Shown: piece by piece, positions 17,699 through 25,400 of the stretch
Layout of the letters: every line of letters begins with the position of its first letter
Numbering within the stretch: the first letter of the stretch is position 1
Origin: Obelidium mucronatum
Lineage: Eukaryota > Chytridiomycota > Chytridiomycetes > Chytridiales > Chytriomycetaceae
DNA length: 64,000 bases
Direction: 5' to 3'
NCBI GenBank assembly: GCA_025765595.1
Contig: JAIVFH010000009.1
Coordinates: 62,001-126,000 of the forward strand
The notes under the pieces: model-generated
What the model saw: only the letters and a program-made list of their open reading frames with translations
Told to the model about the DNA's origin: nothing
Databases searched by the model: none
Program-made: the position numbers and the translations under genes

Positions 17699-18058
17699 AA
17701 AAAATAAAGCTTCAAAGAAATTTGTTTCTGAAAAATCATGTGCCGCATAAGATAACTTTTGAGACCAAATGGAAAGAAGAACCGCCGCAATAAAACAGTT
17801 GGTTCGTTGGGAAATTGTCAGTGTAGTCTATCATGAATAGAATGGATTTTTGATCAACGCCGCTGATTGCAACCCTGCATTTGATAATTGATGAGGGGTA
17901 ATAATAATTTTGTTACGAGATTGTATAAATTGGAGGCGATTAAAATGAAGAAGAATTTCTCGTAATTTGGTAATTACAGTTTGTCTCATTTTGTTCATTT
18001 GCAGACAAACTGAAATTCATAATCCGAAAAAAATCTTACTGAAAAAGAGTCTGAAGTA
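17699..18058. other. Intergenic region, 360 bases
   Basis: Between the RS-rich and homeobox genes, both plus strand. AATAAA motifs near 17703 and 17791 can serve as poly(A) signals of the RS-rich gene. The rest is AT-rich without a frame. Confidence 0.5.
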
Positions 18059-19363
18059 ATGCCGCCTGCAACAATGCACAGCAACAGCAACGCACACTTC
18101 AGAAACATTTTCAGCAGTGTTATTCACGGCCAGACCCAACTTCCTTCTTTTGGACGCGGCTCAAGCAAGAAGGAGCAGCGGTATCTAACTGACCCCAATG
18201 GCCCACCCATCCCGCTTAGATCAGATGGAAGGCGGAAAAGAGTGCATCCAACACGCGAGCAGCAGACTTTACTGGAAGCTTTCTTCCAGGCAAATTATAA
18301 ACCATCCTCCAAAGAAAGAGCAGAGATTTGTAAACAAGTGAACATCAACTCGCGGTCTGTTCAGGTACGTAAATAGCCTCTTATATTTCGCTGATTTAGT
18401 GATACGTGTCGAACTGACTGGTATTACGCAGATTTGGTTTCAGAATCGTCGAGCTAAAATGAAGAAGGATGGAGAGATTCCCAACGGTCGAGGAGCGGAT
18501 AAGTCTGATTCCTCGGATGATGAGGACGATGATGAGCAGGAGTCCGTCAGTCCGTCTTCTGAATACAAACTGCCGGTTCCCACCACTCCAAGCAGCGCAA
18601 TAGAATCAAACTCAAAGCAACAGCAGCAGCAACAACAACAGCAACTGTTTCATCAACAGCCCCCCCTACCAGACTCACAGCAATCAGTAGCGCTCCAAAC
18701 TCTTTGGACAACCGAACAAGGGTCTTCCCGAATCCTCGCTTCAGAACTCAACATTGGTGTATGGAGACGCGTAGCAACCACAATGCAGGACTTAACTTGT
18801 CGAAGTCTCCACGTTACAAGGCGTAGTTCGATACTGCCGTCGTCGAAGCTGGATACACCTTCAAGATGGAACTCCCATTATCATCGATTATTGACGTGTC
18901 TATCCACCCCTTCCTCAACAGTACGTCCATGTCGAGTATTGCATTAGACGTGGGTGGGGTGCCCAGCTTCTATCGCGAATTGCGGGATCCACAAGGGGGT
19001 GTGACGGGACTGTTTGCACCGTGTGATGACTTTACGGAATCGAAGCAGGCGTCAGTGTGTACAAGACATGTTCTTCATGGATCCACGATTGAGATGGAGA
19101 GATTGTTTTTGCTGGTTTCGGAATACTTTGATGTTTTGAAGAGGCATCAAGATCAACAGTTTTTGGCGATTCAGATGCAAGCGTATCAGCAGCAGCAGCC
19201 ATATCAGACACAGCCAGCATACCAGCCGGTTCAAATGTTGGTGGCGCATAGTTCAGGGAATAGCAATCCGTTTCCAATCTCTCCTTTGAACACTCCCCAG
19301 TTGCCAAGCAGCAGCAATAGTAGTAGAGATCCACAAGCCGGATTGGGGTTGGAAGGCGCTTGA
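18059..19363 (+). CDS. Homeodomain transcription factor (389 aa)
   Basis: DNA-binding regulator acting in the nucleus. Exons 18059-18364, 18432-18758, 18827-19363 (introns of 67 and 68 bases); total 390 codons. The homeodomain covers about residues 57-116: RRKRVHPTREQQTLLEAFF in the N-terminal arm and helix 1, then the recognition helix SRSVQ|IWFQNRRAKMKK, whose WFQNRR core is split from VQ by intron 1. It is a typical 60-residue domain, not a TALE type. Downstream are an acidic patch (SDDEDDDEQES), a Gln run (18613-18650) and a conserved-looking C-terminal block (AVVEAGYTFKMELPLSSII...LDVGGVPSFYRE), followed by a Gln/Pro/Ser-rich tail. Intron 2 is placed to remove an in-frame TAG at 18824-18826. 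Targets cannot be read from sequence. Confidence 0.88.
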
Positions 19364-19632
19364 AGGCTTTTCTTTTTTTTATTCTAACTTTATTATTGCG
19401 GCTTGTTTCCTCTATTTGCATTTTATTTTATTTTAGTCAAATTGACTTGTTTGTATTTGGTATTGTTTTTTGCTATAAGGCGCGTGCCCGTCTACCGTGC
19501 ACTCAATCAAACGGTTGCAAATCCCAGGTCAAACAACCTCACTTGAAGGCCTCGACTTGAACCAAAGACCCAGACTCAATCACAGCGAGGAGGAACAAAA
19601 GGATTACAAAAAAAAAATCCGTGTTATATACA

Positions 19633-22319
19633 ATGAGGACAGTTTGTGTTGCTGGAGGAGCCTCGTTTCCCGCCCCCGCTTACCTTGCAGCGATATCCGC
19701 CTTCAGACTTCAATTCCCGTCTGCTCCGCAGATTTCATATATTGCGTCCAACTCGGGGACAAGGACAAACCAGTGTTCAGTCGGGAGTCTACCAATGGGG
19801 CGGCAGCGATATTGCACTTCTTGGAAACGCGTCAGCGACCGGCAGTACCAGCAATAGCAATCAGTTGGTTGTGTTACCCGCCATTGGAGGCGGTCTTGTC
19901 ATTGCCTTCAACATTCCCGGTCTGGAAACACTAAAACTCTCGCGCAAAGTGCTTCCCAGATTATTCGATGGAACAATAAAGCAGTGGAACGATGCGCTGC
20001 TTGTGGCTGATAATCCTTCGCTGCGGACAGTTTCTCATCCAATCATGGTCGTTCGAAGAAGTCCTGGGTCTGGGTCCACCGTGAATTTGGTTCAAGGCCT
20101 GAAATCTATGGATGCTTCACTGCAGTATTTAGATTCTCCATTTGTTCGCACAACATCTTCACAGGATTTACCCATCACATTGACCAACAACTCTATTCTC
20201 GTGAATACAAATGGCGCGGCAGGGGTTATCGTGGGCAACTACCCGTATACAATAACATATATGAGTCAGTTTGAGTTTCTCCAAGAACAGAATGTGACGA
20301 GCTCCAACTGCCATTTGGCAAAAGTGCAACATCAAAACGGGGAATTTATTGATTACTCATTGGATTCTGTTGCAATCGCCGTGAATACTGTTGATCAACA
20401 GAAACTGAATCAATTAAACGTTAGGAATCAGTCGATTTCTGTTTTAGACTCGGCGGCCCCGGGAAGTTATCCGTTCACAGTGATTTCGAATATTGTCTTG
20501 AACCTCAAGAATGTTTCTATTGATTATGATACCACTGTTTGGACAGCAAAGTTCTTGTGGTGGTATTTCATGAATCCGAGTTATACACAATCCGAGAGTT
20601 ATATGGCCGTTTTCAATACGTCTATTGGGGATAAGGCGCTTTCCTACCTGAAAGGCATAGAGTATCGGGGAGAGAAACTATATGGTCAATCAATTTGTGA
20701 TCAAACTTTTGAGAATTGGAAGTCTGTAAACCCTTGTCTTCATGGATATTGTCTCGACCCACTTCCTTTCCAAGATCCTCGAACTGAGTGCATTTGCAAC
20801 CTTGGCTATGAAAATGTTCTCTTCAAAGATTGTCGAGAGCCAATGCAGCTATTTCCTGGAAATAATTATTGGCCGGGAGTTGTAAAGTTTGTTCTTTGTG
20901 GTGTCGGGACTCTAGTCACAATCTATTTGGCGGTTCGTGTGTTTTTGAATCACGACGAAAAGCACATGAAGGCGGTGTCACCCTTTTGCAACTACTTTAT
21001 TTTGGCGGGTAGTTTTGTTGGACAGATTTCGATACTGGCATTAGCAGCTTCTGTTTCAAATGAAACTTGTTCGTTGATTGTTGTGCTTCCAGCATTTTCG
21101 TTTGCAGCCATTTTCGGGTTTGTTATCTTTTTCTCCTTTTCTTCAGCCCTGTACTATACGTCCATTGTGTAGTTTTTAATTCTTTGTCCTTTTCGTTAAA
21201 ATGTACAGGATGATTCTCTTGAAGTCACTGCGAATATTCGTCATCTTTCAGTATCGAAGAATGGCGCGTTCTCGAATGCTTCAAGATACATCTTTACTTG
21301 TTATTGCTGGCGTTTTCGCTCTGGTGAACGGTGGTTTTGCGTTTGCAACGGCAAAGGCCGTTGGCTTGCAACCTGTGTTGGCGCAGTACAATAACAGAGT
21401 CGACCATCAGTACATTTGCGCTGCAGCCATTGACTCTCTGTTGTCGACGATCGTTTTTTCTCTGTTTTTGAGCTTGAACGCGTTGTTGATGGTTGCTTGT
21501 CTGGTGTTTTGTTACTTGACTCGAGATACTGTGAAGAGGTTTAACGAATCCAAATCTATTGCTCTTGTCGTCTACGTCAGTGTATTAATCATTGTGCTTT
21601 GTTCGGTATGAATGATTTTTTATTGTTTTTATGTATATATATTTTTTTATTGAGTTACACCCTGTTCAAAGGCGATCGTCTTTGGACTCTCTTCGGAATC
21701 CGTCGAAACGCACAACCTGAGATACCTTTCAATATCCGTGGCGATTTTCTTAGTGTCTGTATTATCCCCCTTGATTTTATTAGCCGAGCCCCTCCAAAAG
21801 GGAAGCCAGGCAGTCCAAAACAACTTGATCCAACAACAACAGCAACAGCAGCAAACAGCCCAAAGCGGACACTACCAGAAAACACGAGAAGCAATATCAG
21901 GAGCTTACCTCTCTGAAATCGCCGAGTACAACAGCGGCCGCGTATCCGCCCACGTGTTCCAAGTGGGATTCAAACGAAAACGCCGTTTCGATTTGTGGGT
22001 TCCCGCCACTCTGATGGTTATCGGAAGCATTCACAGTTTATTCATCATGACCACGTCGTTCCACATGTTTGTTCAACTGGGCAGTGTGAAAATGAAATTG
22101 GCGGAGGAAATACAAGGGGAAGTGCGGCAAACCAACACGACAAGTACTACGATGGGGACTGCATTGGAAATGCAAATTGGCGGGGATTGTTACTTTATGG
22201 AGTTTGATACGCGAGAAAAGATGGAGGAGTTTTTAACGTTTCATACCCAAGCGACTGTTAGTTTTGCCTTGGAGCATCGGGACCCGGATGGCGGATTCGT
22301 GATTGGAGGGTTCAAGTAA
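19633..22319 (+). CDS. PstS-like/EGF-like/7TM chimeric receptor (about 853 aa, one 1-base frame break)
   Basis: Exons 19633-21150, 21209-21605, 21672-22319 (introns 58 and 66 bases). Residues about 5-350 resemble bacterial phosphate-binding PstS: AGGASFPAPAYLAAI, an NSGQGQ...QWGGSD loop matching GSGaG...DFgaSD, LPAIGGGLVIAFNIPGL, RLFDGTIKQWND and VVRRSPGSGSTV (matching hRSDGSGTT). Residues about 354-405 are Cys-rich and EGF-like (CLHGYC...ECICNLGYE...C). Then come seven hydrophobic segments (about 410-690), with a basic loop after TM3 (LLKSLRIFVIFQYRRMARSR) as in class C GPCRs, then a roughly 180-aa cytosolic tail with a Gln run. The frame shifts in GGGG at 19755-19758; dropping one base makes 854 codons. 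No convincing signal peptide follows the chosen ATG, so a 5' exon may be missing. Phosphate ligand is inference. Confidence 0.82.
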
Positions 22320-22443: not shown

Positions 22444-25400
22444 ATGCACCATGTTGCCAGCCACAGCCGCGCGTCGGTTTTGCAGAAACGATCTGGAACT
22501 GGCGTGAAAAGATCGGCAAACTCCATCGGGGAAATTCCACTGGCTTCGAATGTCGACATGAAAGCTTTGCAGAAGGAACTAGAGAAGGATCCAAAGCACG
22601 AGACTCGGATCGCGAAACAAATCAAGAAAGTCCGCAAGGCTTATTTGGCGCTCAAAAAGGGGTTCTTTGCGACTCTTGTGGCCCTGCTGGTTGAATCCCA
22701 CAACTCGATTGAAACTCTGATTATCATCTTTATTGAGTTTGTCCAGAATCTGGCGTTTTGCTTTGTCGAAGTGGATTGGGGAGTATATGGAAACAAGTAC
22801 GGCTCGATATTGATTCTGTTTCAGGTGAGTGGGGGGATATGGCCAGTGCCGCGTCAAAAATGGTGATTGAGAAGTTCTGATGTAAATCACCCTTGGTGCC
22901 ATACTCTCTCCCTACCTCACGGAAAACAGGTCGAAGAAGCTGTCGTAAAATACACAGTTCCCCAAACAATATTGGTGATTGTTGCCATCGCAGTGATACT
23001 GATTGCAACAATGCTCGTACTAGCAGTCTATGTCGTCCAATCATTCATGAAAAGCGACTTCAACAAAGGAGTTTGGCCACTTAGACTTCTCAGAACGCTA
23101 GGTAATAACGAGGGCTCTGTTTGGAGATTCGCTCTTGGACTTTTTATTTCAATTAACTGACTGTTTGTTTCTTCCTCCTTATTCAGTTTCCATGCTGGCT
23201 TCTATTTTCTTCCTCCCAATCGTTTATTCTCTCTTCAAAATATTCACGTGTCGCCATGGCCTGGAAAATTGCCATCGAGATCCGATATTCGTTGGTCTTC
23301 GAATCATATCCGGCATTGCCCTCCCAGCCTTCTTTGCCTTCACACTCTTGATGAGCATGACGTACTTCAACCCGAACCCAAAAGCAACCTCCATAAGTGC
23401 TCGTCCGACAGCTCGCCTTGAGCTTGTGGAATTGAGTGCGAAAACACTGTTGGCGTGTTTCTTTGTGTTTGCCGAGGATAGTCCTATTCTACGAGAGGCG
23501 GTTACACTTGCTTGTTCTCTATCGACTGCTATTTTCATGTGGGTCTATATTCCGTAAGTAACAAAACCAAACAAAATTCAAGCATAATTTTAAACAGCAC
23601 ATATATGTATCTTTTTTTATTTTAAGGTACTACAAGAAGGAAATCAACCTTTATCGATTCTGTCTTATTTGTCAAGTAATCTGGGGCTCAATACGTTCGT
23701 ATAAAAGAAAAAGAAAACATGTTTTCAAACTAATCGTCTTTTTTTTATTTTCTCCCAAAAAAAAAGTTGCCATCGCTGTCATTGTCAAAGGAGAAGAATC
23801 AGAAGACATGAAAAACTATATATTCTTTGCGTATTGCGCTGGGATCATCCCAGGTGCCTTAATTTCCTACTTTGCCTTCAACGCGCGACAAAATCACGCC
23901 ACTAGTTTCGAAATCGCGTGCAAAAACTTTAAAGTCGATAGCCCCGATGCATTCAACACTTGGGAAGTTGTGGAAGAAGCGAAAGATGGGGAGCATGAGA
24001 AACGGTTTTGGTCTGAATCTCAGGTTTTTTATCCCCCTCCCCCATGCGCTAACCAAATCATTTTTTAAATAATATTAAAAATAATCTTTTTATTTTGTTT
24101 TTATTTTTTTATTTTTGGGCCGCGGCCTCATCTCCCAGGTCGAAATCGCCACTCGCTTTTTAATCACGTCAACAGACCCAAAAGCGTTAGAAATCGCTGA
24201 CAAGATTTATTTATTTGGAACCAAAAAGTTCCCACATTCGTCTAACCTCATGGTTCAATGTTGAGTTTCAATTTTTCTTTCATTCTGTTTTCTTGTTTTC
24301 TCAACGCAAAAAAAAAACATGTATATATACACAAAAAAACCAAACTAGATGCAATCTTTTTTCTGGTGTTCAAGGAAGACTCTTCTGTCGCCGCATCGTA
24401 TTTAAAGAAAGCCGAAAAGGCAACCCAGATGCTAATCGACACTGAATTCACGATTTACCAGCAACAGCAAGAAATCAAAGCAGGTGGAGCTACAGTGGGG
24501 AACAAGAAATTAGATGCAGTAGATCGAGTCGAGTTTAAGCAATTAACAAAAGAGGTATGACAAAAAAAAGTGGAGTTGGGGGCAGTATAAAGTACAAAAT
24601 CCTCCTCTTACTCAACAACATCCCAAATCCAACTTTTTTTTTTTTTGATGTATAATAGGCCAAAAACTCATACGCCGAAGCCCGCGCAAGCATCGCCAGT
24701 TTCTGGCTCGCCATCATGAACGCCGAAGAAGACGAAGCCGTCGACACAGCCATCCTCATGACCCACGTTTCCCAAATGGAACGATCCGACCATAACGCGA
24801 CAGAAGCGTACAACCGCTTGATCCAGCGATACCCTCTCTCCGTCAAAGTGTTGTCCAGCTATGCCGACTTTCTCGATGATATTCATAATAACCATGAGGA
24901 GAGTGAAATGATTCGACGTAGGATGAAGAGGATTTGTGATGCGGGGTTGAGTGATGATGCAAAGTATGGGACCATTGCTAGTAGGGTTGCGCCAGCAAAT
25001 GTGACTGTAGGGTCTTTGGGGGCGGCGGGCTCGACGGCAGTGAATAATAATGCGCCGCCATCGTTAATGCAGGGGAACCACATGACGAAAAAAAGTAAAA
25101 AAGCGTACAAGGAGTATAGAAAACAAGTGTACAACTATTCAAAGGGGAATAGTAAGGTTCTCACTTGGATGATTCGAGGTGAAAAACATTCTTCTCCATC
25201 CAATGCAAAGAAGTTGAAACTAAAATTATCTTTTTTTTCTTTTCAAGGAATCCAAGTGTTTTTCATAACGTTGGCTACATGTCAACTATACGCAAGCTAC
25301 GTAGGAAGCCAAAGAATGAATACAGGCATCACATGGCTCCAGAACGTCAACACATGCAGAAACACGTTCATCAATGTCCACAAAACCATGCGACAGATTC

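Follow-up and report, generated by a model that had tools for sequence, protein, structure and literature searches.

A putative phosphate-sensing class C receptor gene with a PstS-like ectodomain in the chytrid Obelidium mucronatum

Related receptors and binding proteins

In bacteria PstS is the partner of the PstCAB importer. It (2abh, 1pc3) is a separate binding protein, whereas in the Obelidium mucronatum gene described here the corresponding domain shares one gene with the seven helices to which it is fused; it is PstS-like, and not itself a PstS. Metabotropic glutamate and GABA-B receptors have a type I ectodomain (ANF_receptor). In contrast the ectodomain of our gene is PstS-like and of type II, and the gene gives no match to NCD3G (PF07562, E up to 0.1), having a six-cysteine EGF-like segment at that place.

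Type II ectodomains have been described in gut fungi by Seppala et al. 2016. In that study almost half of the gut-fungal class C receptors carry a binding domain of type II, with EGF-like domains in a few, and GABA-B receptors are said to lack NCD3G (PMC5168858). The gut-fungal receptors are therefore like our gene in having a type II ectodomain, but it is described there as resembling the binding proteins of sugar uptake and not PstS (PMC5168858). Krishnan et al. 2012 listed PBP_like_2 (PF12849) in the glutamate-family receptor SPPG_06488 of Spizellomyces punctatus (PMC3251606). This is, like ours, a chytrid glutamate-family GPCR with PBP_like_2, the likeness being in the Pfam pair; it is mentioned once in the main text, where the word 'phosphate' is absent (PMC3251606). 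Among the papers listed in our searches, with most subscription journals outside them, none was seen to assign phosphate as ligand, or any phosphate-related function, to a receptor of this kind, and the main text of a December 2025 survey of fungal GPCRs lacks the terms 'periplasmic', 'class C' and 'phosphate' (PMC12842992). An initial annotation of this DNA knew of no named family of this architecture. That claim of novelty is reduced by the 2012 listing of the domain pair and by the frequency of type II ectodomains in gut fungi. The gene belongs to a kind of receptor that is already listed, but uncharacterised.

Organization of the gene and its product

The window is the whole 64,000-nucleotide stretch that was analysed. 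When P0002, a protein of Rhizoclosmatium globosum, is used for a spliced alignment, the gene falls at 19633-22319 on the + strand, with three exons. The order in the product is PstS-type binding domain, six-cysteine EGF-like segment, seven class C helices and cytoplasmic tail. The features are as follows.

19633..21117, + strand: exon 1, coding for the PstS-type domain, the EGF-like segment, TM1, TM2 and the first part of TM3; frame broken by one base at about 19756 (spliced alignment to P0002, ORF listing)
19645..20683, + strand: PstS-type (PBP_like_2, type II) binding domain
19808..19810, + strand: Asp codon of GGSD, equivalent to Asp56 of PstS (alignment rows)
20054..20083, + strand: RRSPGSGSTV anion loop, with the equivalents of PstS Arg135, Ser139, Gly140 and Thr141 (alignment rows)
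20696..20833, + strand: six-cysteine EGF-like segment between the binding domain and TM1 (EGF score below cut-off; six Cys in the rows displayed)
20864..21793, + strand: class C seven-helix domain with two introns inside, ends approximate
21118..21208, + strand: intron 1 with corrected donor, GTTTGT..GTACAG (spliced alignment, profile score)
21209..21605, + strand: exon 2, with the remainder of TM3 to TM6, including LLKSLRI and FNESK (7tm_3 profile, spliced alignment)
21606..21671, + strand: intron 2 (spliced alignment)
21672..22319, + strand: exon 3, with TM7 and the cytoplasmic tail; stop codon at 22317-22319 (ORF listing, spliced alignment)
21909..22316, + strand: conserved C-terminal beta-rich module (P0002 model and alignment; genome matches confined to the subfamily)

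Intron 2 (21606-21671) had been placed identically in the initial annotation, but its intron 1 (21151-21208) was wrong. The true donor lies 33 bases upstream; the 21151 donor was rejected because it gives the lower 7tm_3 score, 75.5 bits compared with 97.0 for 21118-21208. TM3 then reads AIFGMILLKSLRIF.

Could two adjacent genes, for a secreted binding protein and a GPCR, have been misread as one? The annotated Siphonaria ortholog P0001 stops after the binding domain, as would be expected of two genes. Yet a single open frame of 511 codons (19637-21172) runs from the post-break part of the binding domain through the EGF-like segment and the first two helices to the beginning of TM3, which argues against two transcripts. 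Moreover, five relatives from four other chytrid genera are annotated with both domains in a single chain: P0002 (Rhizoclosmatium globosum), P0003 (Rhizoclosmatium sp.), P0004 (Siphonaria), P0005 (Phlyctochytrium) and P0007 (Polychytrium). The shared frame and the single-chain relatives lead us to reject the idea of two transcripts, and we give a two-gene origin almost no credence. Database relatives are a floor, as only candidates sharing most words were scored. They further include P0006 (Chytriomyces), with 7tm_3 only, and P0029, a metagenomic chain of 1292 residues with 7tm_3 and PBP_like_2 in which two tandem PstS-like repeats are seen by eye ahead of the helices. An Obelidium gene model of the window gene is not among the relatives listed.

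Compared with the exon 1 piece, P0001 has 63% identity along 65% of that piece. By eye, its annotation opens with a stretch resembling the homeodomain gene that lies directly upstream of the window gene (18023-19363, PF00046 E = 1e-9, with a poly-Gln tract), suggesting conserved gene order. Downstream, 22444-23560 looks like a spliced membrane-protein gene; the sole stretch of it that was scanned, 22444-22824, gave no Pfam match with E up to 0.01.

The ectodomain motifs named in the initial annotation, and the PstS-type ectodomain proposed from them, are both found in the window where it had put them. PF12849 (PBP_like_2) scores 41.1 bits on 19742-21169, and 39.8 bits on the part that follows the frame break with its introns removed (cut-off 27 in each case). 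Searching PDB sequences with the exon 1 piece gave Mycobacterium tuberculosis PstS-1 (1pc3) as the best match with E = 1.5e-13, Escherichia coli PstS (1ixh) with E = 3.6e-10 and mGlu1 with E = 0.017. P0002 matches PstS (2z22, E = 4.2e-13) and mGlu4 (E = 4.3e-9) over separate parts of its single chain. The predicted periplasmic binding protein fold is seen in structural models of relatives, which have the two lobes of the type II fold. SBP_bac_1 has no matches in this genome with E up to 0.01.

The anion contacts of PstS are T10, F11, S38, D56, R135, S139, G140 and T141 in PstS numbering. At these positions the window gene has S, F, S, D, R, S, G and S when both frames are read, so that six of the eight are identical and the other two are changes of Thr to Ser. 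The Asp56 equivalent is present in all 16 aligned rows; the row of P0006 is empty in the contact table, having no binding domain, and P0029 was omitted from the alignments. The Arg135 equivalent is substituted in P0003 and in one of the Obelidium paralogs (gE, see below), and position 141 is Ala or Gly in four of the 16 rows. Ligand specificity may therefore vary within the family. In a receptor of the same build the PstS-type pocket might bind another ligand such as molybdate, tungstate, sulfate, a phosphate ester or a phosphonate, but we consider this unlikely. Because most residues of the anion site are conserved, our best guess for the ligand is phosphate or an oxyanion close to it, although the fold and contact residues are not proof of phosphate binding.

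The linker is EGF-like, as initially proposed, but by virtue of its six-cysteine spacing only. That spacing is present in all 11 rows displayed; the Pfam EGF score (16.1 bits, or 15.6 on the spliced piece) is below the cut-off of 21.5.

The helical domain was correctly assigned to class C. The 7tm_3 profile scores 55.3 bits on the exon 2 stretch alone, and 94.1 bits on the intron-free sequence that follows the frame break (cut-off 33.5). The motifs of class C are KxxRI in TM3, FNE(A/S)K before TM6, and cysteines at the top of TM3 and in loop 2; in the alignment the row of the window gene has LLKSLRI and FNESK, and both cysteines are visible. By 7tm_3 homology and motifs the product is a class C GPCR, with putative coupling to a G protein. 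There is no Pfam match to ANF_receptor within the gene, which has PF12849 in its stead; this does not exclude it from class C, because gut-fungal class C receptors also lack ANF_receptor.

A module of about 110 residues following TM7, absent from the initial annotation, is common to the relatives. In the model of P0002 it has seven strands followed by a C-terminal helix, and this order, in that one model, suggests that it may be PH-like. Pfam gave no family over the cut-off for the module (WH1 with E = 0.16 in one of seven members), and a PDB profile search returned one weak, unrelated match only. The tail of the window gene has eight matches in this genome with E up to 1, all inside this receptor subfamily and covering five of its six genes (the window gene, gA, gB, gD and gE); gC gives no match. 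Of the seven matches other than the query itself, six have E values above 1e-6.

The reading of this locus as a chimera of PstS-type, EGF-like and class C seven-helix parts is thus supported by the profile scores, the single-chain relatives, the models of relatives and the genomic family. From its sequence and the models of relatives, a single gene carries a predicted binding domain of type II, an EGF-like linker rich in cysteine, the seven helices of class C and a C-terminal module that is conserved.

A receptor subfamily in Obelidium and the integrity of the window copy

Six distinct genes in the genome have this build: that of the window and five siblings (gA to gE). Four of the siblings have a second copy on another contig, with identities of 98% (gA and gD), 94% (gC) and 80% (gB). 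The value for gB is too low, because its copy on contig C57 was mis-modelled past exon 1 and has its 3' exons elsewhere. On C57 (179182-188466) the 3' exons are about 7 kb from exon 1, due to an insertion or an assembly rearrangement, while the C471 copy is compact.

We compared 45 binding domains in an unrooted tree, with P0029 represented by its first PstS-like repeat only. The 12 chytrid receptor rows group together (99/92), with the window gene and P0001 as a pair (100/99), and the 29 bacterial rows form another group (100/97). P0029 has a long branch and does not fall within the chytrid clade, so that the single grouping holds for 12 of the 13 receptor rows. Three binding domains from a second PstS-like group of the same genome are separate (100/100).

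This second group is found on contigs C28, C371, C30 and C482 (loci L022, L023, L026, L029 and L030). By eye, those whose 5' end is available begin with a membrane anchor, and all have a PstS-like domain followed by several hydrophobic stretches; two downstream stretches of L022 were scanned and gave no Pfam family with E up to 0.01. A homolog search with L023 returned P0033, Obelidium mucronatum BDR26DRAFT_895011, whose N-terminal sequence can be read on C28 in L048. In this genome, then, the PstS-like module seems to be carried by two kinds of membrane scaffold.

Counted exon by exon with E up to 0.01, there are at least 150 segments of 7tm_3 and 79 of ANF_receptor genome-wide, a large set of class C GPCR genes. 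The ANF_receptor segments are sometimes just upstream of a 7tm_3 segment, for example at C583:50-541 and 1259-1978. The type I ectodomain therefore coexists with the PstS type in this genome.

The initial annotation made its proposal conditional on translation as one chain. From the binding domain after the break to the start of TM3 the frame is indeed continuous, but the FPAP/NSG and GGSD parts do not share a frame, being separated by a single-base break at about 19756, within a short run of G. The chain is therefore discontinuous in the present assembly. Position 19633 is the sole ATG in 19364-19645, between the homeodomain gene and the binding domain, and consequently all 62 GT..AG candidates for a leader exon, with introns up to 500 bases, begin inside the homeodomain gene. 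None was convincing. Their top hydropathy is 2.02, compared with 2.2 to 3.1 for the best spliced candidates of siblings gA to gD (best 4 of 62). A hydrophobic leader can be proposed for all five siblings, spliced in gA, gB, gC and gD and contiguous in gE. The orthologs P0001 and P0002, as annotated, also start without a leader; these orthologs may have a different N-terminus as a group, or their models may be too short.

These properties might indicate that a real receptor family is represented in the window by a decaying pseudogene, with a break in exon 1 and a lost leader exon. The break itself and the contrast with the five siblings point that way, as does the lack in the assembly of a second copy of the window gene with which the break could be compared. 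The six genes have ten genomic copies between them, and the spliced models of six copies contain one or more breaks. In gC one of two breaks is at the identical place in both copies, so not every break in the genome looks like an error, and this together with the possible leader of gE led us to give decay slightly more weight. But the two near-identical copies of gD have their breaks at different places, indicating consensus errors in the assembly. Furthermore, the remainder of the window gene is open across three exons, its contact residues and class C motifs are intact, and its exon 1 piece retains the identity to P0001 noted above. A consensus error is the more likely source of the break than recent decay, and that the window copy is a pseudogene is in our view improbable.

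A proposed phosphate receptor of chytrids

Judged from sequence and models, the locus probably encodes a chytrid class C GPCR with a bacterial-type, PstS-like phosphate-binding ectodomain that would sense phosphate. Inorganic phosphate or a close oxyanion would close the two-lobed PstS-type domain, and this closure would be transmitted via the EGF-like linker to the seven helices. These would activate a G protein, whereby the fungus might read external phosphate. The beta-rich tail may aid docking to the membrane or to a partner. The receptor might serve a response to phosphate starvation, growth or the guidance of zoospores; a role in zoospore chemotaxis, as first suggested, is speculation. 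More tentatively, we envisage a family of chytrid GPCRs for extracellular inorganic phosphate, with a fusion of PstS and class C parts that probably occurred once for the named chytrid rows, an expansion to six genes in Obelidium, and a PH-like tail linking the receptor to membrane lipids.

What was a brief domain listing in 2012 becomes a defined subfamily with a specific and checkable ligand hypothesis. If it is correct, fungi would have a phosphate receptor that acts through a G protein and differs from sensing based on transporters (PHO-type). Such a receptor would also give a clean test of whether class C activation works when the ectodomain is of type II, and would offer phosphate biosensors a natural scaffold. 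If the pocket does bind phosphate, then a PstS module would have been swapped in for the usual type I flytrap, and flagellated fungi would have a GPCR that directly reads a limiting nutrient.
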